Of a stretch of DNA of 64,000 bases, positions 1-22,014 are shown one piece after another. The notes below the pieces were generated by a model, which worked only from the letters and a program-made list of their open reading frames with translations, was not told the origin of the DNA and ran no database searches. Each line of letters starts with the position of its first letter. The first letter of the stretch is position 1. The stretch comes from Rhodothermales bacterium. Lineage in GTDB: Bacteria; Bacteroidota; Rhodothermia; Rhodothermales; Bin80. The DNA lies in the NCBI GenBank assembly GCA_958296045.1, contig CATQHT010000003.1, positions 1,933,246 to 1,997,245 of the forward strand. The letters are read 5' to 3'. The position numbers and the translations under genes were made by a program.

Positions 1-930
1 GGACGCCAGGTGATTCGGGACTACGGATTCGGCCGGTGGATCAATGTCGAGCCGAAGTTCGGCGGGCGCTACCTGCCAGAAAACGACTCGTACGCCATGC
101 AGACCGTGGCGCACAACACCGTGGTCGTAGATGCTACGACGCAAAACGGGTTTGATGAGGACGCCGCAGAAGTCACCTCAGGGCAACGCCACTTCTTTAA
201 CAGTTCCGACCCGGCGGCACAGATCGTCAGCGCACGGGCAGACACCTACTACGATGGCGTGGAAATGCAGCGGACCATGCTGCTGCTGCGCCACGAATCG
301 GTGCGGTGGCCGGTCGTCCTCGACCTTTTTCGCCTAACCAGTGATTCGGCTCACAAGTACGACTACCCGCTCCACTATCGCGGACAGCTGATCTCCACAA
401 ACCTGGACCTGGAGACGCACACCACGGCCCTAACACCGCTCGGCGAAGATTATGGCTACCAACACATATGGAAGACAGCCGAGGCGGCAACAGACTCCAC
501 GATACGGATAAGCTGGCTGGACGGAAGTCGCTATTATTCCGCGATCAGCGCTGGCGCAGATGGAACGATCGCGATCCTGGGCAGAACGGGCGCCAACGAT
601 CCTGAATTCAACCTTCGGTCTGAGCCGCTGATAATGCTGCGGCGCCAAGGCGCCGACCATCTCTTCGTAACAGCCATCGTCCCCCACGGGTACTTCAACG
701 AAGCACGCGAGCGCTCCGACGGAGCACGTCCGGAAATCGTCGATGTGCGCGTGGCAGGCCACAACGATGACGGCAGCGTTATAGAGGTTATAGGTATCCA
801 AGGCCTGCTTTGGCGCGTAATGGTGACCAATCACCAACCTGCTGACAGCACTCGCACCCACACGCTGACGTTGGACGGCGTGACCCATGAATGGACCGGA
901 ACACATCACGTCGAAACTTTCCGTTACTGA
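1..930 (+). CDS. Oligo-alginate lyase, PL17-like, C-terminal part
   Basis: This gene enters from the left edge in frame 1, so only the last 309 residues are visible and the true start lies outside the window. The first visible residues, G-R-Q-V-I-R-D-Y-G-F-G-R-W, followed by N-V-E-P-K-F-G-G-R-Y and A-H-N-T-V-V-V-D, are the heparinase II/III-like beta-sheet domain as found in PL17 oligo-alginate lyases. Those enzymes cleave alginate oligomers exolytically to unsaturated monouronates (DEH). The toroid domain with its catalytic Tyr/Asn is not visible. The gene lies 22 bp before an SDR reductase and TRAP genes on the same strand, which fits a periplasmic enzyme of an alginate locus. Another heparinase-fold lyase specificity remains possible; the PL17 call is by motif recognition only. 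Confidence 0.82.
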   Translation, partial: GRQVIRDYGFGRWINVEPKFGGRYLPENDSYAMQTVAHNTVVVDATTQNGFDEDAAEVTSGQRHFFNSSDPAAQIVSARADTYYDGVEMQRTMLLLRHESVRWPVVLDLFRLTSDSAHKYDYPLHYRGQLISTNLDLETHTTALTPLGEDYGYQHIWKTAEAATDSTIRISWLDGSRYYSAISAGADGTIAILGRTGANDPEFNLRSEPLIMLRRQGADHLFVTAIVPHGYFNEARERSDGARPEIVDVRVAGHNDDGSVIEVIGIQGLLWRVMVTNHQPADSTRTHTLTLDGVTHEWTGTHHVETFRY

Positions 931-952
931 CGCACATTAGAACTTCACCCAC

Positions 953-1717: not shown

Positions 1718-1763
1718 TCCTGGGCGCTGCCACCGCCTTGAGAAGGTCCCTGATCCCAGTACC

Positions 1764-2747
1764 ATGTCATGGAGGTCCCTGACGCTGCTGGCGGCTCTGG
1801 TGCTCCTGGCGACGCTGTCGGGTTGTCGCGACGCCTCTGACTCCGTAGAGCTGCGGCTAGCCCACATCCTCGACGCTACGCATCCTGTGCATCAAGGGAT
1901 GGCCTTCCTGGGCGAACGCCTAGAAGAATTCTCCGAAGGTACTATGCGGGTAAAGATCTATCCGAGTGGCCAACTGGGAAACGAGCGGGAGTCCGTAGAA
2001 CTGCTCCAGTTGGGTATGCTCGACATGACGAAGGTGGCTTCCAGCGTGATTGAGAATTTTGTGCCCGCCATGGGCGTGTACAGCCTGCCGTATCTCTTCG
2101 AAGATCACAACCACTTCTGGACCACCCTGAACGGACCCGTCGGCAATGAGATACTGCTGCAGGGAACCCCATTCCGCATCCGCGGCCTCTGCTACTATGA
2201 CGCGGGGTTCAGGAGCTTCTACATCAGCGACCGCGCGGTAAGAACTCCAGAAGATCTTGGCGGACTGAAGATCCGCGTGATGCGCAGCAACCTCTCTATC
2301 CAGACGATAAACATGCTCGGCGCCAATGCTACGCCGATGGCGTACGGGGAACTGTATACCGCACTGCAACAGGGCGTGGTCGACGGCGCAGAAAACAATC
2401 CGCCCAACTTCTATGGCTCCAAACACTTCGAGCAGGCACGGTACTACACGCTCGACGAACATGCCGCGCCGCCCGATGTGCTCCTAATAGGCACGCATAC
2501 CTGGAATGGGCTGACTGCTCAGCAGCAGGAGTGGCTTGCACAAGCCACAGCAGAGTCTGTCACGCACCAGCGACGCCTCTGGATGGAGGCCACCGCAGCA
2601 GCGCTTCAAGCCGTGCAGGATGCGGGGGTAACGGTGATCCGGCCTAACAAGGCGCCGTTCCAGGAGGCGGTGGCGCCCATCTATGATTCTATTGAGGGCA
2701 CAGAGCTCGGCAGATGGGCCGAGCGCATCCGGGTTTCGACACAGTAA
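1764..2747 (+). CDS. dctP: TRAP transporter substrate-binding lipoprotein DctP
   Basis: This 327-residue DctP-family solute-binding protein belongs to a tripartite ATP-independent transporter. The ATG at 1764 was chosen because it gives a clean signal peptide ending in a lipobox, L-S-G-C with C21. A longer frame reaching back into the SDR gene has no such feature. Family hallmarks include A-H-x-x-D near the mature start, the Y-P-S-G-Q-L-G loop, and the G-L-K-I-R-V segment carrying the arginine that salt-bridges the ligand carboxylate. The context suggests a uronate or oligouronate ligand. Lipid anchoring is unusual for a Gram-negative DctP, which is normally free in the periplasm. The stop codon overlaps the next start by one base, so the three TRAP genes are translationally linked. 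Confidence 0.92.
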   Translation: MSWRSLTLLAALVLLATLSGCRDASDSVELRLAHILDATHPVHQGMAFLGERLEEFSEGTMRVKIYPSGQLGNERESVELLQLGMLDMTKVASSVIENFVPAMGVYSLPYLFEDHNHFWTTLNGPVGNEILLQGTPFRIRGLCYYDAGFRSFYISDRAVRTPEDLGGLKIRVMRSNLSIQTINMLGANATPMAYGELYTALQQGVVDGAENNPPNFYGSKHFEQARYYTLDEHAAPPDVLLIGTHTWNGLTAQQQEWLAQATAESVTHQRRLWMEATAAALQAVQDAGVTVIRPNKAPFQEAVAPIYDSIEGTELGRWAERIRVSTQ

Positions 2748-3229
2748 TGACGCGCCTGATCACCAGAATTCTGGCCGTGGTGCTCATCGCATTGATGTGT
2801 GTCATGGTGGTGACCGTGTCCTGGCAGGTCATCACACGTTATCTGCTTAACAGCCCCAGCTCGTATACGGAAGAGCTTGCCACGTACCTGCTGATCTGGA
2901 TTACCCTTTTGGGAGCAGCCTATGCGCTTCAGATTCGCGCACACCTGGGTATCGACATCCTGGTAAGGCGACTGCAGCCGGGCCGCAAATACATAGCCCG
3001 GCAGATCGCCTACAGCACCATCATCGTGTTTGCGCTGGTCGCGCTCGTGTTTGGCGGTGGATGGCTGGTATACGTGACGCTGGACCTCAACCAGCTGTCG
3101 GCTGCCTTTCAAGTACCTGTCGGTTACGTCTACACCGTGCTGCCATTGAGCGGTCTGCTCATCACCTACTACTGCGTCGTAGCCATGCGCGGACTGCGTG
3201 CGTCTCACCATTGTTCTGCTTCCGGTTAG
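2747..3229 (+). CDS. dctQ: TRAP transporter small permease DctQ
   Basis: This 160-residue protein has four predicted hydrophobic helices, as expected for DctQ, which bridges the large permease and the binding protein in the inner membrane. The start at 2747 overlaps the dctP stop (TAATG). A longer frame beginning at 2714 inside dctP is rejected. Typical features are W-Q-V-I-T-R-Y-L-L after helix 1, followed by E-E-L-A-T-Y-L-L-I-W and G-A-A-Y-A. The stop lies 4 bp before the chosen dctM start, so the gene is in an operon with both neighbours. Identity follows from the family pattern and position; it says nothing further about substrate. Confidence 0.92.
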   Translation: MTRLITRILAVVLIALMCVMVVTVSWQVITRYLLNSPSSYTEELATYLLIWITLLGAAYALQIRAHLGIDILVRRLQPGRKYIARQIAYSTIIVFALVALVFGGGWLVYVTLDLNQLSAAFQVPVGYVYTVLPLSGLLITYYCVVAMRGLRASHHCSASG

Positions 3230-3233
3230 TGTG

Positions 3234-4526
3234 ATGAGCACAGCCATCCTGGTACTGATCGTCACGTTTGTGATCCTGCTGCTGCTGGACGTTCCGGTGG
3301 CATTCTGTCTGGGCATGGCCACGCTGACCACCATGTTAGTCGCAGGAGACTTTGTACCCGCGGCCAGCACCACTGCCCAACGCATCGCCGCTGGGCTCGA
3401 CAGCTTCACGCTGTTGGCTATCCCATTCTTTATCCTCGCTGGCCACCTGATGGGGCGAGGGGGTATAGCACGGCGATTGATTGCCTTTGCGCGCGCACTA
3501 ATTGGCGCTCTGCCCGGCGGGCTGGCGCTGGTGAACATCATTGCGTGTATGCTCTTCGGCTCCATCTCGGGTTCAGGCATTGCCGCTGCCGCCGCCATTG
3601 GCACCGTGATGCACCCCAAGATGCTGGAGGTAGGCTACTCCCCCGGCTTCAGCACCGCGGTGAACGTGTCGTCCGCCACGACCGGCCTTCTGATACCACC
3701 CAGCAACGTACTTATCGTCTATTCGCTGGCCAGCGGCACGGTATCTGTCGCGGCCCTATTTATTGCAGGCTATCTCCCGGGGATCCTCATCGGCGGGCTG
3801 CTGATGGTAGTAGCTGCTTTTGTGGCCCACAAAAAGGGATACGGCCAAGGAGAAAGAGTCCGGCTCGGTGAGGCGCTGAGACAATTCGTCCGGGCCTTCC
3901 CCAGCCTGACCCTAGTGGTGGTTGTGATCGGCGGCATCGTGGCTGGCATTTTCACGGCAACCGAAGCCGCGGCTATTGCGGTGCTTTATGCCCTGGCGCT
4001 GGTGCTCATCTATCGGGAGGTACGTCTGAAAGATCTTCCCGACATCCTCCTGGGCAGCGTGACAACCACAGCCGTTGTGATGCTGCTTATCGGCACGTCG
4101 CTGGCGCTCTCATGGGTCTTGTCCTTCGAGGATATTCCGCAGACTATTGCTGGCACGCTGGTGTCACTGAGCGAGAATAAGATTGTAGTTCTGCTCATCA
4201 TCAACGTGTTGCTTCTGATCGTGGGGACGTTCATGGACATGACGCCCGCCATCCTGATTTTCACGCCCATTTTCCTTCCTGTGGTTGTAGGGCTTGGGGT
4301 TGATCCACTCCACTTCGGGATCCTAATGGTGGCCAACCTGTGCATCGGGCTGTGCACGCCACCGGTGGGCACCATCCTGTTTGCCGGGGCCGGCGTCGCC
4401 AACGTACCCGTCCAATCAATCATTCGGCCACTGGTGCCACTATATGTGGCGATGCTTGTCGGACTTGTGCTCATCACCTTTGTGCCGGCGATTTCCACCG
4501 TGTTGCCTCAGCTGTTTGGGCTGTAG
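3234..4526 (+). CDS. dctM: TRAP transporter large permease DctM
   Basis: This 430-residue polytopic inner-membrane protein is of normal DctM length (12 helices expected). The ATG at 3234 is preferred over an upstream GTG at 3198, which would overlap dctQ by 32 bp and add a non-membrane tail. Recognisable DctM segments include D-V-P-V-A-F-x-L-G, the A-I-P-F-F-I-L-A-G stretch, G-S-I-S-G-S-G-x-A-A-A-A-A-I-G and the I-P-P-S-N repeat region. The second half carries N-L-C-I-G-L-C-T-P-P-V-G. It drives Na+- or H+-coupled uptake with DctP and DctQ. Lying between an alginate lyase/reductase pair and a TonB receptor, it is the best candidate for inner-membrane import of lyase products. Confidence 0.94.
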   Translation: MSTAILVLIVTFVILLLLDVPVAFCLGMATLTTMLVAGDFVPAASTTAQRIAAGLDSFTLLAIPFFILAGHLMGRGGIARRLIAFARALIGALPGGLALVNIIACMLFGSISGSGIAAAAAIGTVMHPKMLEVGYSPGFSTAVNVSSATTGLLIPPSNVLIVYSLASGTVSVAALFIAGYLPGILIGGLLMVVAAFVAHKKGYGQGERVRLGEALRQFVRAFPSLTLVVVVIGGIVAGIFTATEAAAIAVLYALALVLIYREVRLKDLPDILLGSVTTTAVVMLLIGTSLALSWVLSFEDIPQTIAGTLVSLSENKIVVLLIINVLLLIVGTFMDMTPAILIFTPIFLPVVVGLGVDPLHFGILMVANLCIGLCTPPVGTILFAGAGVANVPVQSIIRPLVPLYVAMLVGLVLITFVPAISTVLPQLFGL

Positions 4527-5029: not shown

Positions 5030-7849
5030 ATGGCTAGACTGTTTTTCGTCGCTGCATTAGCCATGGTGTCGTGCGGGCTTGCGGGCCCGGCACCGGCTGT
5101 GGCCCAGTCTGGGAAGGTTACTGGACTGGTGACCGACGACGTCGGCGAGGCCCTCTTCGGCGCTAACGTGATAATTACCGGCACCGGGCGAGGATCCGCT
5201 ACAGAGATTGACGGGCGCTACTTCATCCTCAACGTGGCTCCCGGTACGTACAACCTGACAGCGTCGTACGTCGGCTACCAGTCCGTAACAACGCTGGAGG
5301 TTATTGTCAACCTCAGTCGCACCACCACCGTGGACTTCACGCTGATTCCCACGGCGACCGAAGGCGACGAGATTGTCGTGTCAGCAGTGCGCCCGGATGT
5401 GGAAAAAGATCAAACCGCGACACTCGAAATAGTGCGCCCCGAAGAGGTGGAACAGATTGCTGGACTGACCGACCTTTCCGGCATCCTGGGCCTGCAGGCT
5501 GAAGTCAGCGACGGCCACTTCCGCGGAGGCCGCTCCAACGAAGAGCTCTACGTGCTCAGCGGTATGGGCATCGTGAACCCGCTGAATTCCTCGCGCTCAT
5601 TCACCCCCATGCTCAGCGCTGTCGAAGAAGTGGAAGTCATCACAAGCGGCTTCTCCGCCGAGTACGGGAACGCCATGAGTGGTGTCATCAACATTTCTAC
5701 GCGAGAAGGCGGACCCGTCTGGGCCACCCGGGCAGAAATCCGTACGCGGGCACCAGGCTACAAGCATTTTGGCGGCAGCGTCTTTAGCCCGCAGACGAAT
5801 CCGTATATCCGCCTCATGGATAACGTGGAATGGTGGCAGGCCCCCGACCCGGAAAACGATGACCGCCCCCGCTGGCAAGGCGCGGTAGGGCGCGGCTTCG
5901 GATCGCGGATTGACCCCGAAGAGGGCGCTCAGCTAGCCTACGACCTCTGGCGGCGAACGCACCGAGACATCGGATACGAATACAACAACCGATGGGACGC
6001 CCTGATGGACTTTACCGTAGGCGGACCCCTCTCATCTAGAAGCGCACTCTTTGTGGCCACGCAGATCAATCGTGTGTGGCCAATGCTGCCGACTCCAGAG
6101 CCGAACCGACAGGCTCAGGTGATGGCAAACCTCGTTGTGCGGCCCTCGGCTGGCGCAAAGATCAAGTTGAGTGGGCTGCATGGTTCCGTATATGAGCAGG
6201 AATTCAGTTACTCGTCGGGCGGATTCTACCGCTGGATCTATGATCGCGTGATCGGTGCAAACAAGGTACGTGACCTTAGCACCGGCGTGGGCCTGATGTA
6301 CTCGCATGTGCTGAGCGACCGGACCTTCTACCAGATGACAGTCAATGGCCTCCGCACAAAGCTGAGGGAAGGTGTAGATGTGATCGATCCAGACCGGTTC
6401 CGGGACGATATCTACGACCGATCCGTATGGGAGCGGCTGTACTGGGAAGACGGATTCCGTACGGGGGTCATGGATGACGACTTTTTCAGCGAGACGTCCT
6501 GGACCTGGTCTGCGGTGGGGTTCATCAATAGCCAGGTATCCAACAATCACGAAATCAAGGCCGGCATCCAGGCAAACCTGTACGACATCGATGTACAGAA
6601 CCGGCTCAACAACTCCTCAAGCACCAGCGCGGTCCGCGAAGTCTATCGAGCAAGTCCGTACGAGGGTGCCATCTATATCCAAGATAAGATGGAGTTTGAG
6701 GGCATGATCACAAACGTCGGGGTTCGCCTCGACTTTTATGATCAGAACGTGCTGTACTACGCGGACACCTTCTCCCCTTTTCGCGATCCGAACAACCCCG
6801 CGGTAGTCGACGAAGAGGCGGCCGCCAAATTGAAGACGCCTGCCATCGTGCGGCTGCAGCCCAGGCTCGGGTTTTCTTTCCCCATCAGCGAACGCGCCGT
6901 ATTCCACCTCAACTATGGCAACTACCTGAAGCGGCCCGGGCTGGAAAGCCTGATTGGCCGGAGAACGACCCTGTTCAACGAGAACCTGGGTACGGTGGAA
7001 CCGCGGCGGCTGGGGAACCCGCTGCTCAAGCCGGAAGAAACCAAGAGCTACGATGTGGGCCTGGTGCTCGGCGTGGCGCGCGGCTTTACGCTGGACATGA
7101 GCGGCTACTACAAAGACGTCAAGAACCTCATCCAACGCGTCGTTTATATCGACACGAACGATAACCTCTACGAATCCCTGGGCAATCGCGATCACGCGAA
7201 CGTCCGGGGCTTCAGTCTGCGCCTAAACAAGCGCCAGGGGATTATTTCAGGATCCGTCCGCTACCACTTTTCGGTTGCAACAGGAAAGAACTCGACCCCA
7301 ACGGGACGGAGCCCAATCATCGACGAAACCGATGAGCAGACGCAGCAGCCAAGCCCGCGCGATATCCTGCTCAACTATGATCGGAGCCACTCCATGATCC
7401 TTATCAGCGGTGTCAACCTTCCCACAGCGTGGGGGCCTCGCATCGGAGGGGCACACGTATTTGGAGGCCTACGGATCAACTTGCGGCACAGCAGCCGAAG
7501 CGGTCGCCCCTACACGCCCAGTGAACTTCTGGGCGACAACTTCGCTAAGCTGAATACGCTGCGGACCCCCTGGGAGCACAACACCGACCTGAAAGTGACC
7601 AAACGGCTCCAGCCGCGCGGAGGCAACGTGGATGTGTTCATCGAAGTGTTTAACCTGTTCGACCGGCGGACCTTTAACTACAACAGGGTCTTCCTGGACC
7701 CTGAAACGCTGCGCAGATACGAGAACGGCGAGGACATCGAGTATGCGCTTCCCGACAGCAACAACCCGGACCTTGCAGCGCTGCAGACCTTCCGCATCTA
7801 CAACAATGCACCCCGCTCAGTCCGCCTGGGCGCGGTGGTTAACTTCTGA
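5030..7849 (+). CDS. TonB-dependent outer-membrane receptor
   Basis: This 939-residue protein has a signal peptide (residues 1-26, ending A-V-A-Q). It is followed by a carboxypeptidase-regulatory-like domain (about 27-115, G-K-V-T-G-L-V-T-D with the A-P-G-T-Y core). Next come a plug domain (about 140-270, with R-G-G-R-S-N-E and A-E-Y-G-N-A-M-S-G-V-I-N-I) and a 22-strand barrel ending in an aromatic (V-V-N-F). ATG 5030 was chosen for its signal peptide; the frame stays open upstream only because of the MITE. The layout is like SusC receptors, but no SusD follows. Instead a T9SS-exported protein comes 16 bp later. The likely substrate is alginate oligomers, judged from neighbours only. Confidence 0.9.
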   Translation: MARLFFVAALAMVSCGLAGPAPAVAQSGKVTGLVTDDVGEALFGANVIITGTGRGSATEIDGRYFILNVAPGTYNLTASYVGYQSVTTLEVIVNLSRTTTVDFTLIPTATEGDEIVVSAVRPDVEKDQTATLEIVRPEEVEQIAGLTDLSGILGLQAEVSDGHFRGGRSNEELYVLSGMGIVNPLNSSRSFTPMLSAVEEVEVITSGFSAEYGNAMSGVINISTREGGPVWATRAEIRTRAPGYKHFGGSVFSPQTNPYIRLMDNVEWWQAPDPENDDRPRWQGAVGRGFGSRIDPEEGAQLAYDLWRRTHRDIGYEYNNRWDALMDFTVGGPLSSRSALFVATQINRVWPMLPTPEPNRQAQVMANLVVRPSAGAKIKLSGLHGSVYEQEFSYSSGGFYRWIYDRVIGANKVRDLSTGVGLMYSHVLSDRTFYQMTVNGLRTKLREGVDVIDPDRFRDDIYDRSVWERLYWEDGFRTGVMDDDFFSETSWTWSAVGFINSQVSNNHEIKAGIQANLYDIDVQNRLNNSSSTSAVREVYRASPYEGAIYIQDKMEFEGMITNVGVRLDFYDQNVLYYADTFSPFRDPNNPAVVDEEAAAKLKTPAIVRLQPRLGFSFPISERAVFHLNYGNYLKRPGLESLIGRRTTLFNENLGTVEPRRLGNPLLKPEETKSYDVGLVLGVARGFTLDMSGYYKDVKNLIQRVVYIDTNDNLYESLGNRDHANVRGFSLRLNKRQGIISGSVRYHFSVATGKNSTPTGRSPIIDETDEQTQQPSPRDILLNYDRSHSMILISGVNLPTAWGPRIGGAHVFGGLRINLRHSSRSGRPYTPSELLGDNFAKLNTLRTPWEHNTDLKVTKRLQPRGGNVDVFIEVFNLFDRRTFNYNRVFLDPETLRRYENGEDIEYALPDSNNPDLAALQTFRIYNNAPRSVRLGAVVNF

Positions 7850-7865
7850 GCCTGCTGTGACCGCC

Positions 7866-10133: not shown

Positions 10134-11122
10134 TGCGTTTCACGATCACGCTGGGTATGGTGCTCTTGTGCCTGCTGCTGCCGCCCGAGGCAGCTGGGCA
10201 AAAAGTTGGCACGTCGTCTATGCAGTTCTTGAGTGTGGCTCCAGATGCCCGCTCGTCCGGGTTCGGGACCGCCTTCGTAGCCATGGCCGCAGGCGCCCAT
10301 GCGCTGTACTGGAATCCGGCAGGGCTTGCGCGCGCTGGCGGGCACACGCTGGCCCTCGATCGCGTGAATTGGCTCCTGGATGCTACCCACTACGCCGTGG
10401 GCTATGGCGTCAACCTGGGCTCGTTTGGCCATCTGGGGGCTCAGTTCTATCTGGCCGACATGGGCCAGTTTAAGGAGACGCGCGTCGATCACCTGGGATT
10501 TGTCGACCGCGACGGGACGTTGGTATACAACCCGGGGCTTACGGGCAACACATTCTCCTTGAGCAGCTGGGTGCTAGGCCTCACGTATGCGCGCAACTTC
10601 ACCGATCGCTTTGCGGCAGGCCTTTCCACCAAGGTGGCCCGAGAGGATCTCTGGCTCGCTTCCGACGTGGCCGTGCTGTTTGACTTCGGGATCACCTATG
10701 CTACCGGCTTCCGGTCGTTGCGCCTGGCAGCGTCGGTAATGAATTTCGGCGCGCCGGTCTCCTATGGAGAGGATTCTTTCCCTGTGCCGCTCCTGTTTCG
10801 GCTCGGTGGCGCCATGGACCTAGTGGGGAGCGCCGGCCTGGTACCTGTGCATGACTCCAGCCGCCTGACGGCCACTTTCGACCTGATTCAGCCCAACGAC
10901 TACGATCAGCAGTGGGCTGCGGGTCTGGAGTACTCGCTATTCCAGCGCTTGTTTGTACGGAGCGGTTACCAGCACAACTTTGACGCTGTCGGCTTCAGCT
11001 ACGGACTGGGGGCTCTGCAGACGATCGGCCCCGTTCGGCTAGGCGTGGACTACAGCTACACGGATATGACCGAGGCTTTGGGCGTGGTGCACCGTCTGGG
11101 TCTTTCATTGACGACGGACTGA
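10130..11122 (+). CDS. PorV/PorQ-like outer-membrane barrel protein
   Basis: This 330-residue protein has a signal peptide and the pattern of the PorV/PorQ (UPF0164) family. The N-terminal segment is F-L-S-V-A-P-D-A-R-S-S-G-F-G-T-A, followed by A-L-Y-W-N-P-A-G-L-A, and then alternating beta strands to an aromatic-poor end. PorV shuttles T9SS cargo from the translocon to the attachment complex in the outer membrane. The start overlaps the previous stop (ATGATG at 10130; the second ATG at 10133 is possible). It directly follows a T9SS cargo gene, so a dedicated export or uptake partner is plausible. A locus-specific channel rather than the general T9SS PorV is the other reading. Confidence 0.78.
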   Translation: MMRFTITLGMVLLCLLLPPEAAGQKVGTSSMQFLSVAPDARSSGFGTAFVAMAAGAHALYWNPAGLARAGGHTLALDRVNWLLDATHYAVGYGVNLGSFGHLGAQFYLADMGQFKETRVDHLGFVDRDGTLVYNPGLTGNTFSLSSWVLGLTYARNFTDRFAAGLSTKVAREDLWLASDVAVLFDFGITYATGFRSLRLAASVMNFGAPVSYGEDSFPVPLLFRLGGAMDLVGSAGLVPVHDSSRLTATFDLIQPNDYDQQWAAGLEYSLFQRLFVRSGYQHNFDAVGFSYGLGALQTIGPVRLGVDYSYTDMTEALGVVHRLGLSLTTD

Positions 11123-11124
11123 CC

Positions 11125-12519: not shown

Positions 12520-12533
12520 GAGGACGGTCCGTA

Positions 12534-15122
12534 ATGTTTCGCATTCTGAAAGCCCTGACCATTGCAGGTTTGGTAGTGGCACCTAGTGCTGCTGCCCAGC
12601 ACCCGAGGTACGACACGTATAACGGGTTCGAGGTCGATACCACTCCCACGCTGCCGGCAGCAGAGGTTCACCCATCGCTGTATTTCGAAGACGGTGATAT
12701 AGCAGCGCTGCAGGCGCGCAAGGGTGACGTCAACTCACGCTACTTCGCTCTTTGGCTGCAGATTCGGGGCGACGCGCTGCGCTTTCGGGACGACGATATG
12801 GCCACGCTGGACGAGAATGATCGGCCAAGGGCAGCGAAGACGCTAGCATTCTGGTCGATCCTGGAAGACGACACCGTCGCGGCGGACAAAGCCATCGAGG
12901 CGTTGCTGCTGGCATACGATGGTGTGCCGCAGACCGGCCAAAAGCCCTACGACGAAATCTACCGGGCCACATGGCTTCAGAACTATGCGGCGGCCTATGA
13001 CTGGGTGCATGTGCGCCTGACGACTGCGCAGGACTCGACGATACGGCAGCGTATCGCGGACGAGACGCAGTACCTGCGCGATAACCTTATGTCTGGGGAT
13101 CGCCTAGCACCCAGGCCCCATAATCATCGTTCGAAGCCTGCATGGGCTGTCGGGACCGCGGCACTGGCACTATCCGACCACCCCGAAGCCAGAGACTGGC
13201 TGTCCTTTGCGCTAGATGCCGCCAACACGGTAACCCGTTACCAGTTCAGCGCCGACGGCATCTATCGCGAGGGAGGCCACTATTGGATGTACAATGCTGT
13301 CAACCTGATCCCCTTTCTGTGGCACTACCTCAACGTGTCCGAGGTGGATCTCTTTGCGGCGTACCAGCCGGCGTTTGAGTGGCCGATACGCATACGGACT
13401 GGCCGCGGCCAGATTCCCAACCTGGAAGACGGGTACCTGAAGCCGGCTCCCACCCACATGGTGGCCGCGGCCTACACGGGCATACCGACGGATCTTAATC
13501 CAACGGCGGACTTTGCCGCGATCTGCCAGTGGAACTATGAGCACACGCGCGTCATCGATCCGAACTACACCGGAGCGACCGCAGATGTGACCTGGGAGAT
13601 TGACGAATACATCCTGTATGACACGACGATTGTGGCGGCTGCACCGACCGCGTCCCCGACGCAGTTCCTCGAAGGCGGGCAGATAGTGTTTCGCAGCCAC
13701 TGGGCGGCGGATGCCAGCGATCGTTATCTGCTGTTTCACGGGGTGGCTGAAGCCGACAACCACAACCATCCAGACCAGCTCTCCTTCTTTCTCGGAGGCT
13801 ACGACGCGATATTAGCGCCGGATGCCGGGTATGGTCCAGACGGGTTTTCTGATGACCGCCGCAGCTCGTGGTATACAACAGGAAAGGCGCACAACATAGT
13901 GACGGCCGATGGCTACCCGCCGGTGACAGATCAGCTTTGGTCGTCGCCTATCGAGTACAATGTGACGCCGCCGTCGCGCTACCATGTCAATGCTTCATTC
14001 TTCGCGTTCGCGGAAAAGGAGAGCGGCTATCTTCGGCCCAATGATGTCAGCTTAAAGCGGGCAATCGGCATGCTGAGTCAGGACTACTTCGTGGTCGCCG
14101 ATGTTATTGTAGGCAGCAGCTCGCACGTGTACCGATCTTATCTGCATGGGCGCGGCTCATTTCAGCGTCAGGGAAACTATGCGAGTTGGGCTCCCTGGGC
14201 GAACCGGTACGGGGAAGCCGCGCGCCTCGATGCGTACCTGTTTCCGGCATCGGCGGATATCGTGGATGCCACCGGGTACGTGAGCCTTTTCAAGGACGAG
14301 CGTTGGGAGCGATATGTCGAGGTATCGCAGACGGCTGAGACAGCCACGTTCTTGCAGCTGCTTGTCCCGGCACCGACAGGCGGCGTCGCGCCCGCAGCCA
14401 CGGACTTGAGCACCGAGGACTTTACGGCTGCGCGGCTTGTTGTCGCCGACACGGTCGATCATTTTATGGTGCAGCCCTCTGCAACCTGGCGCCAGCTTGA
14501 CTCGATGGCCACCGATGCTACGCTATTATGGGAGCGGCGAGTCGCGGACGCGCTGACGATGGTGGCCGTGCGCGAGGCTCGTGAATTGGAAAGCGGTGCT
14601 GTGACGCTCACTGCCAGCGTGCCCGCGACCTTAGCGCTGGATGTGCGTGACGCCAATGCATTGCATATTGCCGCGCCGATGGCGCATCCTGCCATCGACC
14701 TGGAGATTGCCTATCCTGGAGCGGACGGCGTTCAGGAGGTGCAGGTCAACGGCCAGTCAGTGGCTTTCAGCTACCAGGACGGACACCTGAAGGTCGGCCT
14801 TATAGCTACCGGCTCTGAAGAGTCGGCAAGCCTGCCACGACCATCGCCCGTGGGCAATGCTTTGTCGGTCTATCCCAATCCCTTCAGCAGCGAAGTCACG
14901 GTGGTGGCTCCAGGGCAGGAAGACGGGCCATTCGTCGTTGCCATCTACAACGTCCTCGGGCAAGAGGTGCGCAAGATGCGTCTTGATCGTTTTCATCGAC
15001 AACTGACCTGGGATGGAACCTCTGATTCCGGTGCGCCGGTCCCGCCTGGCCATTACCTAGTGTGGTGGACGGGCTCGGACGGCGCCGTATTCAGCGGCAC
15101 CGTGGTACGGGCATTGCGATAG
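12534..15122 (+). CDS. Secreted heparinase II/III-type polysaccharide lyase with T9SS tail
   Basis: This 862-residue enzyme has a signal peptide (1-22) and an alpha-toroid domain (about 45-330). That domain contains H-N-H at 196-198 and D-G-I-Y-R-E-G-G-H-Y, in which Y244 and H249 are likely catalytic residues. A beta-sandwich domain follows (about 375-700) with the heparinase signature around H410 and H412 (N-H-N-H-P-D-Q-L-S) and D-A-G-Y-G. The tail from about residue 775 is a T9SS sorting domain: V-Y-P-N-P-F, then Y-N-V-L-G-Q-E-V and P-G-H-Y-L-V. The substrate is probably alginate or a related uronan by context. The exact PL family (PL17, PL39 or another) cannot be fixed by eye. It differs from the gene at position 1, which is a separate lyase of the same fold. 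Confidence 0.8.
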   Translation: MFRILKALTIAGLVVAPSAAAQHPRYDTYNGFEVDTTPTLPAAEVHPSLYFEDGDIAALQARKGDVNSRYFALWLQIRGDALRFRDDDMATLDENDRPRAAKTLAFWSILEDDTVAADKAIEALLLAYDGVPQTGQKPYDEIYRATWLQNYAAAYDWVHVRLTTAQDSTIRQRIADETQYLRDNLMSGDRLAPRPHNHRSKPAWAVGTAALALSDHPEARDWLSFALDAANTVTRYQFSADGIYREGGHYWMYNAVNLIPFLWHYLNVSEVDLFAAYQPAFEWPIRIRTGRGQIPNLEDGYLKPAPTHMVAAAYTGIPTDLNPTADFAAICQWNYEHTRVIDPNYTGATADVTWEIDEYILYDTTIVAAAPTASPTQFLEGGQIVFRSHWAADASDRYLLFHGVAEADNHNHPDQLSFFLGGYDAILAPDAGYGPDGFSDDRRSSWYTTGKAHNIVTADGYPPVTDQLWSSPIEYNVTPPSRYHVNASFFAFAEKESGYLRPNDVSLKRAIGMLSQDYFVVADVIVGSSSHVYRSYLHGRGSFQRQGNYASWAPWANRYGEAARLDAYLFPASADIVDATGYVSLFKDERWERYVEVSQTAETATFLQLLVPAPTGGVAPAATDLSTEDFTAARLVVADTVDHFMVQPSATWRQLDSMATDATLLWERRVADALTMVAVREARELESGAVTLTASVPATLALDVRDANALHIAAPMAHPAIDLEIAYPGADGVQEVQVNGQSVAFSYQDGHLKVGLIATGSEESASLPRPSPVGNALSVYPNPFSSEVTVVAPGQEDGPFVVAIYNVLGQEVRKMRLDRFHRQLTWDGTSDSGAPVPPGHYLVWWTGSDGAVFSGTVVRALR

Positions 15123-15144
15123 CCTGTTATATTCACACTCACTC

Positions 15145-15162
15145 TTGCCTCGTTCGAGGCAA
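15145..15162. promoter_or_regulatory. Perfect 8-bp-stem hairpin between lyase and beta-helix genes
   Basis: TTGCCTCGTTCGAGGCAA is an exact inverted repeat (8-bp arms, 2-base centre) in the 60-bp gap between the stop at 15122 and the start at 15183. It has no following T-run, so it is not a classic intrinsic terminator. It could be an operator, an mRNA-processing or stabilising stem, or a weak terminator separating the upstream genes from the beta-helix/PL6 genes. Confidence 0.45.
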
Positions 15163-15182
15163 TCACCCCAACTTGCAGGATT

Positions 15183-17558
15183 ATGAAACACGTTACTACT
15201 CTACTTAAAGCCGGACTGTCGGCAGCGCTCTGCGCGCTCCTCGTCACCGGAACCGGGCTTGCGCAACAGCGCATTGAGGTGCCGGCAGCCTATGACACAC
15301 TTCGGGGTGTCGTGCACAATATGGCCGCCCCGGGCGACACCATCGTGCTCATCACCGACGGCGGCAACTATGAGAATGAAGACGAGATCCGAAACAACGG
15401 CTTGCCCCTGGTCATTATGGCCGCGCCTGGCCTTTCAGAGCGTCCTGTCATTTCCAATACGGGTCCCGATGGTACGAAGGACATCATACGGCTGTACGAC
15501 GACCTGACGCTCATCGGACTGGAGTTTGATGGGAAAGACCCGGACCAGCAAACGAAGTATGGGATCCGTACCGGGAGCGGATCCGGCGATGCCGACACGA
15601 ACGTCAAGAAGGGATACGTCCTGAAGATTATCGACTGCTACTTCCACGACTTTGTCCACGGCTCAGACGGCAACGCGTTCCGGGCCTATTCCATGACCGA
15701 TGCGGACTCCATCATCATCCAGAACTCGATCATTGAGAACACCGGAAAAGAGGCCGTGCGTGTTCGTGATGAGGACAGTGACAGACCGGGCTTCGGATTC
15801 TACAACGTGGACTACTTTGAGGTGACCAACTCCACGTTCTGGAAGATCAGGAACGACGCCATCTCCGTCTACGGTGGTGATGAGGACCCCAACACGCCGG
15901 GACCCAAGGTGATTATCGATCATGTGACCATCTATCAGGCGGGGCACTACGTCCTGAACCTCAAGGATGTCGAGGACGCTACGGTGACCAACACCATCTT
16001 GGTCGACAACTATGACATCGTCAATGCCACCAACAAGACGCTGGGGCTGCCGTGGATGGTGCCGGGATCACGCATCGCCTACAGCGATACGCTCAACCTT
16101 AGTGACGATGGGGATTGGACGGGCAATCGAGGAGATCCGACGATAGAGAACCTGCTCGCCGTGGATCCCATGTTCGCGGATCCAGACATGGGTGACTTCA
16201 CGCTGCTGCCGGGCAGCCCCGTGATCGGTGCGGGAATGAACGGCATGACGATGGGGGATCCAAGGTGGTGGCCAGCAATCACGAGCGTCGCAGCGGGTCA
16301 GAACACATTGATGGATGCCGTTAACAACGCGATGCCCAACGAAGTCATTCTGCTGACCGATGGCGGCGGGGAATACCTCAACGACAACAACATCAACGTA
16401 ACCATGCCGCTAACCATTATGGCGGCACCGGGGGTCATGACACGGCCGGTTATCAAGAACAATGAGCCCAACGAAAGTACACGGGTGATATTCGACATCT
16501 TCGACTCCTTGCATCTGGACAATGTCGAGATCGACGGCCAGGCGGGCACAGAATTCAATGCTAAGTACCTGCTACGCATCCGCAACAGTAGCTCCACCAT
16601 GGTGGACACTACTATGGTGCTCAAGGTGACCAACAGCTACCTTCACGGGGTCATCGCTGGCAGCGACGGCAACTTCTTGCGCCAGTACAGCGAGACCTAC
16701 GCGGATTCGGTCATTTTCCAGAACTCCATCCTTGATAACAGCGGTAAGGAAGGCATCCGCATCAAGGATGAATCCAGCGACCGCCCAAACCAGGGATTCT
16801 ACAACGTGGGCTATTTCGAGCTATCCAACACCACGATCTCAAGAACCAAGCGCTCGGCGATCTACGTGTATGCGGGCGATGATGACCCCAACACTCCAGA
16901 ACCCGAGTTCATGGTAGACCATTTGACGTGTTACATGTGCGGCTACGACAACGGTCGTGCCGTGTGGCCCCGGGACATTCAGAATGCTACCGTCACCAAC
17001 AGCATTTTCGCCAGCAGCAAAGAAGACGGTGACTTCAGCGTCCGGCTCTATGGCAACTCGAGCATCTCGTACTCCGACACCTTCATGGTGTCGCCCGTGG
17101 TCTTGAGCGGCAGCGCCACCGAGAGCGACAACTATGACGTGGATCCAGAATTCGCTGACCCGGACAACGGGGACTTCACCATCCCGCAGGGATCGATGCT
17201 GCGGACGGCAGGATCGAACATGATGGGCATCGGAGATCTCCGCTGGATCCACGGCGTCACCGACGTCGAACCTTTGGAGCTTCCGCAGGAGCTGGACGGA
17301 ATGCTAGGGCAGAACTACCCCAACCCCTTTGTCAGCACGACGACCATTCCGTATCGGGTCCCCGAGTCAGGGTATATGCGCCTTGAACTCTTTGACCTGC
17401 TCGGTCGGCGAGTCCTGATCTTAGAGGAGGGCGACAGAGCGAAAGGGGATTACTCCGTGTCGTTTTCGATGCCGGATATGGCAGCGACGGGCGTCTACTT
17501 TTACCGGTTGACCGTGGGCGGGCAAACCGAGTGGCGCTCGCTGATGCGCACGCGGTAG
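15183..17558 (+). CDS. Secreted protein with two tandem parallel beta-helix units and T9SS tail
   Basis: This 791-residue protein has a signal peptide (1-27). Unit 1 (about 28-365) and unit 2 (about 366-690) are clear internal duplicates. Each has N-G-x-x-x-x-I-M-A-A-P-G-like strands, H-G-S-D-G-N / A-G-S-D-G-N, then E-N-T-G-K-E-A-V-R-V / D-N-S-G-K-E-G-I-R-I, then F-Y-N-V-x-Y-F-E, then G-D-D-D-P-N-T-P, and a closing G-D-(P/L)-R-W. The sorting tail starts N-Y-P-N-P-F. Neither unit has the E-x-E...K...R catalytic set of PL6. It may therefore bind substrate, or cleave by another site; similar helices are annotated in Bacteroidota only as DUF4957/DUF5123-like. It lies immediately before the PL6 lyases. 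Confidence 0.78.
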   Translation: MKHVTTLLKAGLSAALCALLVTGTGLAQQRIEVPAAYDTLRGVVHNMAAPGDTIVLITDGGNYENEDEIRNNGLPLVIMAAPGLSERPVISNTGPDGTKDIIRLYDDLTLIGLEFDGKDPDQQTKYGIRTGSGSGDADTNVKKGYVLKIIDCYFHDFVHGSDGNAFRAYSMTDADSIIIQNSIIENTGKEAVRVRDEDSDRPGFGFYNVDYFEVTNSTFWKIRNDAISVYGGDEDPNTPGPKVIIDHVTIYQAGHYVLNLKDVEDATVTNTILVDNYDIVNATNKTLGLPWMVPGSRIAYSDTLNLSDDGDWTGNRGDPTIENLLAVDPMFADPDMGDFTLLPGSPVIGAGMNGMTMGDPRWWPAITSVAAGQNTLMDAVNNAMPNEVILLTDGGGEYLNDNNINVTMPLTIMAAPGVMTRPVIKNNEPNESTRVIFDIFDSLHLDNVEIDGQAGTEFNAKYLLRIRNSSSTMVDTTMVLKVTNSYLHGVIAGSDGNFLRQYSETYADSVIFQNSILDNSGKEGIRIKDESSDRPNQGFYNVGYFELSNTTISRTKRSAIYVYAGDDDPNTPEPEFMVDHLTCYMCGYDNGRAVWPRDIQNATVTNSIFASSKEDGDFSVRLYGNSSISYSDTFMVSPVVLSGSATESDNYDVDPEFADPDNGDFTIPQGSMLRTAGSNMMGIGDLRWIHGVTDVEPLELPQELDGMLGQNYPNPFVSTTTIPYRVPESGYMRLELFDLLGRRVLILEEGDRAKGDYSVSFSMPDMAATGVYFYRLTVGGQTEWRSLMRTR

Positions 17559-19306
17559 TGAGCCGCTACCCGAAGGTCGGGACCCTCATTTGCATGCTCT
17601 GCCTCTATCTGCCTGCGCCCGTAGTCAGGGCGCAGGCAGAGCGGTTTGTCACAACGCCCGCCGAGCTGGCGGCAGCCATTGCCGCTTCGGATCCGGGGGA
17701 TGCGGTCGTGATGGCAAATGGAGTGTGGACGGATGTGACGATCTCCTTTTTTGCCGAAGGGCTCCAGGGGGATACGATCACGTTGCGGGCAGAGACGCCC
17801 GGGCTGGTGGTACTCAATGGCTCCTCTCGCCTGAAGATCGGAGGCTCCTACCTCAAGGTGGATGGCCTGTGGTTTGACCAGGGCGCGCTAACCAGCGGCC
17901 ATGTGGTAGAGTTTCGGCGCTCCTCGTCGTCTTTGGCGCATCACAGCCGCCTAACGAATTGCGCTGTGACGAGCTACAACCCACCCGGCCGCCTTACCCA
18001 GTACAAGTGGGTATCCATCTACGGGACACACAACCGCGTCGATCACTGTCATTTCGCCGGCAAGACCCACGATGGCGCCACGGTTGTTGTCTGGCTGCAG
18101 AATCCGCCCAATGACAGTCCAAGGTGGCACAGGATAGATCACAACTACTTCGGGACGCGTCCAGACCTGGGCAAGAACGGTGGTGAATCGCTGCGGATTG
18201 GCACTAGCAGCCGATCCATGCAGCACAGCCATGTCACCGTCGAGCACAACCTATTCGAGGAATGCGACGGAGAGATAGAGATCATCTCGAACAAGAGCGG
18301 ATCCAACATCTTCCGGCACAACACTTTCCGGCGTTCCAGTGGCATGCTGACGCTGCGTCACGGCAATGAGGCCGACGTCTACGGCAACTTTTTTCTGGGG
18401 GAAGGTAAGTCAGGTAGTGGCGGTGTTCGCATCATCGGTGAGCGCCACCGTGTCTATAACAACTACTTTCAGGATCTGACCGGCACGGGCTACCGGGCCG
18501 CCGTGTCATTGGTCAATGGCGTGCCCAATTCGCCGCTGAACCGGTACTTCCAGGTCAAGGGGGCGCAGGTGATTTCCAACACATTCGTGAATGTCAGGGA
18601 GGCCTTCGTCTTTGGCGCTGGCAAAAGCTCCGAGCAGTCGTTGCCACCGGACAGCGTGGTGGTAGCCAACAACCTAGTTTCCACGACCAGTGGCCCCATC
18701 GTCGAATACGTCGACGAGCCTCTTCGCGTGCAGTACGCGGCGAACATTTTTCATGGCGCGAGCGTCGGGCTTCCAGATACGACGGCTGGCATCACAGCAG
18801 AGGATCCGCTGCTTGAGCAGCGGGACGGCTTATGGCGTCCGACGGCCACCAGTGTTGCGTTAGATAGCGCGGTGGTGTTTTCGTTTGTGGATATGGATGT
18901 GGACGGGCAGGTGAGGGATACCTTGCCCGACATTGGAGCGGATGAGCGCTCCTTGGACCCGATCGTGTACAGAGCGCTTACGCGAAGCGATGTCGGGCCC
19001 GAATTCCAGGACCTTGTCCTGCAGATCGTAGAGGATGAATTGCCTGGCCCGCAGGCTGCATTGCGCGCCTTTCCCAACCCGTTCATAGCTGGCACCACGC
19101 TGGAGTTCACCTTGGACCGAAGTGCTCCTGCCCGCCTTGTGGTGTACGACATCTTAGGGCGCGAAGTCGCGATATTACTGCGCGGGTATCATCCCCCAGG
19201 CACGCACCGCATTGAAATTGATGCGTCCCGGCTCGCGGCTGGCACCTATTTCGCTGTACTGCACATCGAAGACCGCCGCCAAGTGGAGGCACTGGTAAGG
19301 CAATGA
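17558..19306 (+). CDS. PL6 alginate lyase with T9SS sorting domain
   Basis: This 582-residue secreted lyase starts at GTG 17558, which overlaps the previous TAG stop and gives a normal signal peptide ending V-R-A-Q. The chondroitinase-B-like parallel beta-helix spans about 28-440. The PL6 active-site layout known from AlyGC and chondroitinase B is complete. Calcium-binding E239-x-E241 is followed five residues later by catalytic K246 and 21 residues on by R267 (within T-L-R-H-G-N). N-G-G-E-S-L-R-I-G lies just before. The sorting domain begins F-P-N-P-F near residue 500. Expected action is beta-elimination of alginate at or outside the cell surface. Endo or exo mode cannot be told from sequence. 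Confidence 0.9.
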   Translation: MSRYPKVGTLICMLCLYLPAPVVRAQAERFVTTPAELAAAIAASDPGDAVVMANGVWTDVTISFFAEGLQGDTITLRAETPGLVVLNGSSRLKIGGSYLKVDGLWFDQGALTSGHVVEFRRSSSSLAHHSRLTNCAVTSYNPPGRLTQYKWVSIYGTHNRVDHCHFAGKTHDGATVVVWLQNPPNDSPRWHRIDHNYFGTRPDLGKNGGESLRIGTSSRSMQHSHVTVEHNLFEECDGEIEIISNKSGSNIFRHNTFRRSSGMLTLRHGNEADVYGNFFLGEGKSGSGGVRIIGERHRVYNNYFQDLTGTGYRAAVSLVNGVPNSPLNRYFQVKGAQVISNTFVNVREAFVFGAGKSSEQSLPPDSVVVANNLVSTTSGPIVEYVDEPLRVQYAANIFHGASVGLPDTTAGITAEDPLLEQRDGLWRPTATSVALDSAVVFSFVDMDVDGQVRDTLPDIGADERSLDPIVYRALTRSDVGPEFQDLVLQIVEDELPGPQAALRAFPNPFIAGTTLEFTLDRSAPARLVVYDILGREVAILLRGYHPPGTHRIEIDASRLAAGTYFAVLHIEDRRQVEALVRQ

Positions 19307-22014
19307 TGCGTCGCCTCGGCCATGTCCTGTTAGGGTTGCTGGCCATCGGGTTGGCCGAGCCTGATGAGACGGTTGTGCACAACGCGGCGGAGTTTGCTAA
19401 GGCAGTTGAGCAGGCTCGTGGTGGGGACACGATTGTGCTGGCGGATGGCATCTGGCATGATGCGACATTGACGTTCGACGCCGATGGGGCACTGGGCGAC
19501 ACCATCACCGTCCAGGCTGAGACGCCGGGCGGCGTGATACTGACAGGCTCTTCGCGGCTCCGTATTGGGGGAAGCTATCTGAAGGTGGAGGGGTTGTGGT
19601 TTCATCGGGGAGCACTCAGCGGCGGGCATGTGATTGCTTTTCGCACCGACCGGCATGCTCACCACAGCCGCCTTACGGCGTGCGCCGTGACCGAGTATAA
19701 CCCATCGAACTGGCTGGTTCAGTACAAGTGGGTCTCCATGTACGGGACGCACAACCGGGTGGATCACAGCTATTTCGCTGGTAAGACGCACGATGGTGCA
19801 ACGCTGGTGGTCTGGCTGGAGGACGCCCCAGACCACGTTCGAAACCATCACCGCATTGACCACAACCATTTTGGCCCCCGTCCGAGGTTGGGCAAGAACG
19901 GTGGTGAAACCATCCGCATCGGCACCAGCCATCGCTCGATGCAGTCTTCGCATACGATCGTTGAAAACAACTTGTTCGAGCGAACTGATGGCGAGCACGA
20001 GATAATTTCCAACAAGACCGGGCACAACGTCTTTCGCGGCAACACCTTTTGGGAGGCCCAGGGAGCGCTGACGTTGCGCCATGGCAATGCTGCCACCGTT
20101 ACCGGCAACTATTTTTTGGGCAGGCGACGTCCAGGTACCGGTGGAGTCCGGATCATCGGTGAGGACCACCGTGTGGCGGACAACTATTTCGAAGGACTTC
20201 GGGGCGACTCGTCTCGGGCTTCGCTATCGATCATGAACGGCATTCCTAATTCGCCGCTGAACCGCTACTTCCAGGTCAAGCGTGCGGAGGTTGCCCACAA
20301 CACGTGGGTAGACACGAGGGTAAGTCTACTGTACGGGTTGGGTGCGGACTCAGAAAAGTCATTGCGACCCGAGGGGGTAACGATACGAGACAACGTGATT
20401 GTGGCTCAGGCGGATATGCCGGTCATACGGTCTATGGTGCCGTTCGATGGCGTTGTCTTCGATGGCAACGTATTCCATGGGCTGCCGCCTGCGAAGGGTC
20501 CGCCGGGGATAGCGTGGCAGGATCCCACGTTGCAGCAGGGTGATGACGGGCTTTGGCGCCCTTCTCCTGACGGACCGGCGCATCTGAAGGGTGCGCGCCT
20601 TGGTCACCCTCCGGTCACTGAAAGCGACGTGGGCCCGCCGTGGTGGGGCATGCCCTGGACGCCGACCATATTGGCCGATTCCACGGTGAGTCTTCCCGAC
20701 TTTTCCTGGGCTGGATACCGTTGGGGCGAACAGCCGATACCGGAGCTTCCAGTCACTATGGACGTTACCGCATTTGGTGCTACGGGCGATGATATGCGCG
20801 ACGACACCGCGCCTTTCCAGCGGGCTCTGGCTGCAGCGCACCAGCACCCGGGCCCAGTGGTGTTGGGCATTCCAGCGGGGCGGTTTCATCTGTCGGGCAT
20901 CTTGCGGCTTGAGCGAGACAGTCTTGTTCTTCGCGGCCGTGGACCGGATTCCACCTTTCTGGTCGTCGAGAAGCCTTTGCGCATCCTGGACACGCCCGCC
21001 CAGCAGCAGGAAGAAGTCGCTGGCGCACCATCTTCCCAAGGCCTTGGCTTATCCCCGTTTGCTTACCAGGGGGGTATCATCTGGGTGCGCAGCCCGAGCG
21101 GGATTCACGCGCAGGACAGCATATCTGTCTTGAGTGCCCAGGGCCAGACCATCACCGTTGCGGAGCGTGGAGCGTGGACATTGCCAGCGGACGCACAGCT
21201 GCGCTGGACCACCCAAGGTCGCCGCCATGCTCAGGTGGTCACCGTGATCGCGCAGCAGGGTCTCGTGTGGCGCACTAAAGAGCCATTGTGGGAGCAACAC
21301 ATCACTGGTGCCATGGACGCGCATATCTCGGCTATCAATCTCTTGCGGGAGGTTGGTGTGGAACATCTGTCCGTGGTTTTCGAACCGGTTCCTTACCGAG
21401 GTCATCAATTGGATGATGACTACAACGCCGTCTTTTTCGATGGCGTCCGGCACGGATGGATACGTGATGTGACCATAAGCAACGCTGACAACGGCGTTCT
21501 TCTTAGGGCGAGCGCCAACGTGACCATGGCTGGTCTTGTCGTAAGGGGACGTGGTGGGCATTCCGGCGTATTGTTCATGGACACCCGGTATGGGCTGTTG
21601 GCCGAATCCCACCTCAGCCAGGCGGTGCACCCTGTAGGATGTGTGCAAGGTGGCGGGTACAACGTAGTGCTGGGCGGCTCGGCGGCGAGCCTCTACGAGG
21701 CAGGCTGCATCATGCCCAATCTGTACGACGGATCCACCTTGGAGTCTGCTGGCGATGTCCTCTGGCAGCTGTCTCCAGCGTCGCGGCCGGTACTCTGGAA
21801 CGTCACGGCACGGTACGAACACCCGGACCATGTGCGGCTGCCGGTATTCACAGGCTTTCTTGGAAATGATGCCACGGTGATAGGGCTGCGCGCCGGCGTG
21901 CCGTTGCGCTTGGGTATCGCTACCGGCGCGCACGTGGAGGGCATTAATCGCGCGCCATTGGCGGTGCCATCTCTGTACCAAGCTCAGCTAAGCGGTCGCG
22001 CACCAACCTGGTAG
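19303..22014 (+). CDS. Two-domain lyase: PL6 helix fused to a pectate-lyase-3-like helix
   Basis: This 903-residue protein overlaps the previous stop by 4 bp. A short signal sequence is followed by a full PL6 domain (about 22-450) with E231-x-E233, K238 and R259 in the canonical spacing and the same N-G-G-E-x-x-R-I-G stretch. A linker rich in proline and tryptophan leads to a second right-handed helix (about 484-890). This helix begins V-T-A-F-G-A-T-G-D, the usual start of the Pectate_lyase_3 fold, with A-F-Q-R-A-L and I-P-A-G-R-F-H-L following. Unlike its neighbour it lacks a T9SS tail, so it probably stays in the periplasm. A bifunctional lyase, or a lyase plus carbohydrate-binding helix, is likely; which one is not visible. 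Confidence 0.85.
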   Translation: MMRRLGHVLLGLLAIGLAEPDETVVHNAAEFAKAVEQARGGDTIVLADGIWHDATLTFDADGALGDTITVQAETPGGVILTGSSRLRIGGSYLKVEGLWFHRGALSGGHVIAFRTDRHAHHSRLTACAVTEYNPSNWLVQYKWVSMYGTHNRVDHSYFAGKTHDGATLVVWLEDAPDHVRNHHRIDHNHFGPRPRLGKNGGETIRIGTSHRSMQSSHTIVENNLFERTDGEHEIISNKTGHNVFRGNTFWEAQGALTLRHGNAATVTGNYFLGRRRPGTGGVRIIGEDHRVADNYFEGLRGDSSRASLSIMNGIPNSPLNRYFQVKRAEVAHNTWVDTRVSLLYGLGADSEKSLRPEGVTIRDNVIVAQADMPVIRSMVPFDGVVFDGNVFHGLPPAKGPPGIAWQDPTLQQGDDGLWRPSPDGPAHLKGARLGHPPVTESDVGPPWWGMPWTPTILADSTVSLPDFSWAGYRWGEQPIPELPVTMDVTAFGATGDDMRDDTAPFQRALAAAHQHPGPVVLGIPAGRFHLSGILRLERDSLVLRGRGPDSTFLVVEKPLRILDTPAQQQEEVAGAPSSQGLGLSPFAYQGGIIWVRSPSGIHAQDSISVLSAQGQTITVAERGAWTLPADAQLRWTTQGRRHAQVVTVIAQQGLVWRTKEPLWEQHITGAMDAHISAINLLREVGVEHLSVVFEPVPYRGHQLDDDYNAVFFDGVRHGWIRDVTISNADNGVLLRASANVTMAGLVVRGRGGHSGVLFMDTRYGLLAESHLSQAVHPVGCVQGGGYNVVLGGSAASLYEAGCIMPNLYDGSTLESAGDVLWQLSPASRPVLWNVTARYEHPDHVRLPVFTGFLGNDATVIGLRAGVPLRLGIATGAHVEGINRAPLAVPSLYQAQLSGRAPTW

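Follow-up and report, generated by a model that had tools for sequence, protein, structure and literature searches.

A 64,000-nucleotide stretch of DNA from a marine bacterium of the order Rhodothermales, referred to here as the window (G000:C3:1933246-1997245, in a genome of 4.78 Mb), begins with a 22-kb run of genes that is almost certainly an alginate locus. On the + strand the run encodes, in order, a PL17 oligoalginate lyase, a short-chain dehydrogenase/reductase (SDR), the three subunits DctP, DctQ and DctM of a tripartite ATP-independent periplasmic (TRAP) transporter, a TonB-dependent receptor (TBDR), an unannotated protein of the type handled by the type IX secretion system (T9SS) and labelled hypA, a PorV-family barrel, a FadL-type barrel labelled hypC, a PL39 lyase, a beta-helix protein with DUF5123 domains and two PL6 lyases. 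The TonB receptor, hypA, PorV and hypC are together called the quartet. With moderate confidence the run is interpreted as a complete locus for alginate utilisation whose outer-membrane uptake module works independently of SusD, and it is fairly likely that the quartet is that module. Evenly balanced is the wider proposal that the quartet forms an unrecognised SusD-independent class of glycan uptake over several phyla of the Fibrobacterota-Chlorobiota-Bacteroidota (FCB) group, in which a T9SS-delivered beta-supersandwich protein on PorV/FadL barrels replaces the lipid-anchored helical lid of SusD, and whose alginate and pectin versions split before the host lineages diverged. An original prediction from the sequence alone had named the genes and their order on the + strand, which gene calls and domain matches confirm; its lyases, PL17-like and PL6, were correctly recognised, with the PL39 enzyme at 12534-15122 overlooked.

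That prediction had also described the locus as being without a SusD, and had named a conserved SusD gene elsewhere, paired with the receptor, as what would speak against it. No SusD was found in the window, and no such pairing was seen in the 34 genomes that carry the quartet: SusD is never beside the quartet in them, the closest on the same contig lying 38 kb away, and 14 of the 34 have no SusD at all. On these counts a distantly encoded SusD was ruled out as the receptor's partner. An ordinary Bacteroidota polysaccharide utilisation locus (PUL) whose SusD was lost or is encoded elsewhere would agree with the presence of one SusCD pair in the genome. However, that single SusD, at C3:801757 and 1.1 Mb off, lies directly behind its own SusC, close to a GH4 gene, in a different locus, and the TonB receptor of the window (5030-7849, with a CarboxypepD_reg N-terminal domain, its open reading frame (ORF) opening at 4859 and its likely start at 5030) reaches 75 bits against the SusC/RagA model TIGR04056, far below the cut-off of 368. 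Together with the carrier genomes, this makes such a PUL scarcely credible.

The quartet is conserved well beyond the window. When 84,980 species genomes were scanned with an alignment of 18 hypA sequences, 80 loci were obtained, and the quartet is complete, in order and on the same strand in 63 of the 66 with enough flank; the three exceptions are technical, since there are runs of N in L147, L155 is at the edge of its contig, and L176 has hypC but the extent of its ORF failed the distance rule. The hosts include Rhodothermota, Ignavibacteriota, Calditrichota, Marinimicrobia and KSB1, and SprA, of the T9SS translocon, was found in all 33 carrier genomes tested. Compared with Rhodothermus marinus, the window quartet has the same order and homologous members throughout, with identities of 42, 46, 43 and 34% for the TonB receptor, hypA, PorV and hypC; the receptor and hypA genes of the window are 16 nt apart. 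The synteny comparison proposed by the original prediction thus finds the quartet in several phyla, and the window's TRAP order again in Calditrichia. In one genome, G243, two hypA quartets (L077 and L087) stand about 17 kb apart on contig C33 with PL6 genes between them. The window's own genome has four further triads of a TonB receptor, a T9SS protein and PorV (L023:10503-16773, L024:4534-11581, L025:1700-9941 and L026:3669-10920), whose T9SS proteins are mostly unlike hypA and beside which such lyases were not seen; the receptor-cargo-PorV arrangement may reach beyond polyuronates. L025 holds two nearly identical T9SS proteins of 1163 aa (5289-8780 and 10210-13698), the product of a recent duplication; behind the first stands a PorV-family gene, and behind the second an ORF whose N-terminus is the same.

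Alginate is not the only substrate with which the quartet is associated. Non-redundant loci, 96 in number, were labelled by their enzyme neighbours, giving 53 alginate loci (PL6/17/39), 13 pectin loci (PL9/GH28/GH88) and none with both. In some loci without an alginate lyase, Pfam finds PL9-like beta-helix, GH28 and GH88 proteins, which are pectin enzymes, and pectin quartets occur in Rhodothermales and Ignavibacteriota (L080, L091, L162, L170, L171, L175, L177 and L178). On the hypA tree the label changes between alginate and pectin once, against a mean of 12.1 after shuffling, and no shuffle of 500 was as low; the pectin side is fully supported. The trees of the receptor, PorV and hypC likewise show one change each over the 68 loci with all four proteins. 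Furthermore, genome G030 carries both an alginate and a pectin quartet, on opposite sides of the tree, and R. marinus-type genomes have one quartet copy per clade, the second copy being unlabelled by the enzyme models. The "distinct type" of alginate system suggested by the original prediction is not a first, its core having been published for R. marinus in 2022, and the description suits the conserved quartet better than the single alginate locus, because the quartet also accompanies pectin enzymes.

The unknown T9SS protein and two barrels that had been noted after the receptor correspond to hypA (7866-10133), a PorV/PorQ-family outer-membrane barrel (10130-11122; NF033709 at 177.7 bits, cut-off 90) and the FadL-fold barrel hypC (11125-12519). 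No Pfam or NCBIfam model matched hypA, and no T9SS model scored on it. Its AlphaFold2 (AF2) model, built from 44 sequences, has a pLDDT of 85, is mostly beta and ends in a beta-sandwich. The N-terminal region, over about 256 residues, is a predicted beta-supersandwich as in GH94 phosphorylases and GH116 enzymes (Z 17-19.5), without the (alpha/alpha)6 catalytic domain usually next to it, and is followed by FnIII-like and C-terminal beta-sandwich domains. In Foldseek the highest-ranking rows were tandems of FnIII domains, mostly at TMq 0.10-0.14, and only one region of hypA was therefore matched there; the supersandwich emerged from a second structure comparison. No SusD row was among the fold matches listed, which excludes nothing; the SusD fold is helical and TPR-like. 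As an enzyme hypA was rejected, as it matches only the N-terminal beta domain of enzymes and the catalytic domain is missing, which leaves room for some other activity. The idea that hypA is a surface glycan-binding partner of the receptor is slightly favoured. The AF2 model of hypC (pLDDT 88) has BamG and FadL as nearest folds, with target TM of 0.65-0.73; hypC was rejected as a BamG, as it scored 67.9 bits against a cut-off of 250 for NF053685 and has the FadL fold alone in common with it. BamG, a subunit of the barrel assembly machinery (BAM) of Bacteroidota, is a barrel holding the surface subunit BamH (PMC12611786), T9SS PorV binds cargo and PorU, and PorV of Cytophaga hutchinsonii co-purified with a TonB receptor (PMC8564354, PMC12611786). 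By analogy with these three cases, an anchoring of hypA by the barrels is plausible. In the proposed mechanism, non-catalytic hypA would bind oligosaccharides at the surface, where the PorV-family barrel, hypC or both would grip its C-terminal domain and so keep it at the membrane; the oligosaccharides would then cross the outer membrane through the TonB receptor, and hypA would fill the role of SusD although it is not a SusD itself.

Several points weigh against this interpretation. The loci were recruited by hypA similarity, with both clades represented in the seed, and their frequencies are therefore not population estimates, and 30 of the 96 loci remained unlabelled. The tree-distance correlations among the four quartet proteins, 0.75-0.92 over the 68 loci, are inflated by shared species history. 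Fold likeness by itself is no proof of glycan binding by hypA. A KdgF gene was not found in the window locus, whereas the R. marinus locus has one. Finally, PorV proteins have a known role as shuttles of the T9SS, and the barrels may accordingly serve lyase export and not uptake. In the form that this last point takes as a full explanation, the PorV barrel, hypC and hypA are a T9SS branch dedicated to the locus, which exports and anchors the lyases, while the TonB receptor alone takes up oligosaccharides as in proteobacterial clusters without SusD. Such clusters exist, since polar Proteobacteria have alginate clusters in which susC-like genes occur and susD does not (PMC7874173), PorV acts as a shuttle to which cargo proteins are passed (PMC8564354), and the presence of SprA in every carrier genome tested also agrees. 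Yet the genes for the receptor and hypA lie next to each other and have a common history with the barrels, a core-secretion-type PorV is encoded elsewhere in the genome, and the four further triads stand without such lyases alongside, which fits uptake modules better than lyase export. The dedicated secretion branch is therefore judged unlikely, though it is the strongest competitor of the uptake module. In the open-licence literature nothing was found on PorV in Rhodothermus or on Por secretion in Ignavibacteria, a weak absence.

The lyases of the locus are complete members of alginate lyase families. The residues mutated in published crystal structures are intact in PL17, PL39 and both PL6 enzymes. 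PL17, whose 3' part occupies 1-930 of the window, belongs to a complete gene for 728 aa (C3:1931989-1934175; L002:16744-18930) that starts 1257 nt upstream of the window edge; it matches Alg17c over its full length (E 2e-163) and conserves two residues, a His and a Tyr, that are mutated in 4ok4 and 4ojz. PL39 (12534-15122) matches Dp0100 over its full length (E 1e-159) and conserves the His mutated in 6jpn. In comparison with AlyGC, the PL6 enzyme at 17531-19306 conserves the Arg of R241A and the Lys of NKSG, and the two-domain PL6 enzyme at 19303-22014 (1e-99) conserves the Arg of R241A. In the protein at 15183-17558, the beta-helix/DUF5123 domain that forms the C-terminal part of two-domain PL6 enzymes occurs twice, together with a T9SS tail; it was rejected as a PL6 catalytic protein, as it has only these C-terminal-type domains, and it is possibly a binding protein. 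Very long non-lyase DUF5123 beta-helix proteins, of about 1420 aa, also adjoin the quartet in Ignavibacteria (L070:442-4707 and L094:950-5206).

The export of the lyases by the T9SS, as originally predicted, is upheld in part. Against TIGR04183 (cut-off 23), a clear tail was found on the PL6 enzyme at 17531-19306 (30.2 bits), as on the DUF5123 protein (36.8 bits), while the tail of PL39 is weak, with 19.1 bits and under the cut-off; none was found with C-terminal sorting-domain models on PL17 or on the PL6 enzyme at 19303-22014, so not all the lyases are exported. PL17, which has a signal peptide and no detected tail, is probably periplasmic, and so probably is the second PL6. PL39, one PL6 and the beta-helix protein would accordingly be the surface proteins that cut and hold alginate, and the second PL6 and PL17 would release from the oligosaccharides in the periplasm the unsaturated monouronate 4-deoxy-L-erythro-5-hexoseulose uronate (DEH). 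The SDR (953-1717) is a probable DEH reductase: it resembles the DEH reductases A1-R/A1-R' (E about 1e-39) and is 67% identical to KdgR of R. marinus, for which DEHU reductase activity is stated as verified with unpublished data (PMC9530828). The SDR would reduce DEH to 2-keto-3-deoxygluconate (KDG), which a KDG kinase and a 2-keto-3-deoxy-6-phosphogluconate (KDPG) aldolase would phosphorylate and cleave. The genes of the latter two, KdgK and KdgA, are adjacent to each other at C3:1551 kb, 380 kb from the locus, and a KdgF-like cupin lies at C3:1576 kb, 25 kb from the pair.

Carriage of DEH across the inner membrane by the TRAP transporter is considered likely from its gene context. DctP (1764-2747; PF03480, lipobox LSGC, ORF opening at 1623 and likely start at 1764), DctQ, the small membrane subunit (2714-3229; PF04290, 4e-30), and DctM, the large one (3198-4526; PF06808, 6e-119), are all present and adjacent. 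Counting the window's own, eight Rhodothermales genomes from three families have such a DctP next to PL17-SDR or PL39, the proteins of the other seven being 62-78% alike to that of the window, and in Calditrichia L146 the order is PL17-SDR-DctPQM-TBDR-hypA-PorV-hypC-DUF5123-PL6-PL6, which is that of the window minus PL39. Moreover, within genus g4 the importer is swapped in the same slot: R. marinus (G008) has PL39-MFS-PD40, with an importer of the major facilitator superfamily (MFS), and its congener G050 has PL39-DctPQM-PD40. G008 was matched to the published R. marinus locus because the gene order agrees, as do the exact lengths of the transporter gene (1278 nt) and the PD40 gene (2844 nt). 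The TRAP import named in the original prediction is backed by this swap, by the linkage in eight genomes and by the order in Calditrichia, with the ligand predicted. Should the transporter take saturated hexuronates or another acid, DEH would use a different one. The best PDB matches of the window DctP are DctP proteins, solved for the most part with saturated uronates, and the genome has a second TRAP set, a close paralogue (51%). However, alginate lyases end at unsaturated uronates, TRAP occupies the exact MFS slot in the sister species, and the window DctP falls into a supported group with the alginate-locus DctPs of Rhodothermales and Calditrichia, apart from the second DctP of the genome. 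That second DctP adjoins a gene of the mannitol-dehydrogenase family (uronate reductase-like), which makes a separate system for other uronates plausible. A ligand other than DEH is judged improbable. The DctPs of KSB1 L130 and of L114 lie outside the alginate-locus group.

The locus probably comprises two transcription units, since 332 nt lie between dctM and the TonB receptor ORF and since sister genomes have PL17-SDR-DctPQM on the strand opposite to the quartet and the PL6 genes; a single operon for the entire run is doubtful on the same grounds. Just upstream are two methyltransferase-like ORFs of 1022 aa with near-identical domain scores (L002:9085-12153 and 13391-16459), adjoined by IS21- and IS1595-type transposase genes; the locus borders a mobile region. 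Directly past the locus (window:22710-24029), on the opposite strand, are an integrase N-terminal-like ORF and an NYN-domain ORF. Farther on, window:44107-46914 encodes a restriction-modification protein of the MmeI type, in which all five MmeI domains are present.

In Bacteroidota the SusCD pair counts as the hallmark of glycan uptake, and loci are sought by it. If the quartet is the uptake module proposed here, surveys based on SusD miss polysaccharide use in Rhodothermota, Ignavibacteriota, Calditrichota, KSB1 and Marinimicrobia, the T9SS is linked to nutrient uptake beyond export alone, and three "hypothetical" proteins of a cultured and published organism, R. marinus, gain a testable role. 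The closest known system is the Alg-PUL of R. marinus MAT378/DSM 4252, described in 2022 with tonB, hypA (T9SS type A), hypB (PorV/PorQ) and hypC, three of the genes being called hypothetical, and with an MFS importer (PMC9530828). The two loci share the quartet, PL6, PL17, PL39, the DEH reductase and the lack of a SusD, whereas an MFS importer, kdgF, kdgK and kdgA are in the R. marinus locus, and DctPQM, a second PL6 and the DUF5123 protein in the window. As the core was already described there, the window locus is a variant of a published one; the section consulted does not mention the quartet outside R. marinus, and new beyond that paper are the cross-phylum conservation of the quartet, its pectin version, the hypA fold and the importer swap.

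Other known systems are more distant. The SusC/SusD-MFS alginate PULs of Flavobacteriaceae resemble the window in surface lyases, a TonB receptor, an exolytic lyase, an SDR and the KDG route, but the window has no SusD, a receptor under the SusC cut-off, a T9SS beta protein with two barrels instead, and TRAP in place of MFS. DctPQM was predicted as a DEH importer in Saccharophagus degradans in 2011 (PMC3124978), so the TRAP route is not a first either; no experimental test of that proposal was found in the open-licence literature. In S. degradans DctPQM is next to the candidate KDG kinase and separate from the lyases, in a gammaproteobacterial outer-membrane setting. The alginate locus of Vibrio sp. 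C42 likewise relies on a binding-protein-dependent secondary transporter for alginate products, which differs in that it belongs to the tripartite tricarboxylate transporter (TTT) family, takes oligosaccharides and works with a porin; the alginate importer types listed with it are pit-ABC, SusCD-MFS, porin-SSS and now TTT, and TRAP and the quartet are absent from that list (PMC13390454). The quartet barrels also recall BamG and PorV, which are likewise outer-membrane barrels holding surface proteins (PMC12611786, PMC8564354), while hypC differs from BamG in falling far under its cut-off and in being encoded with a nutrient locus.

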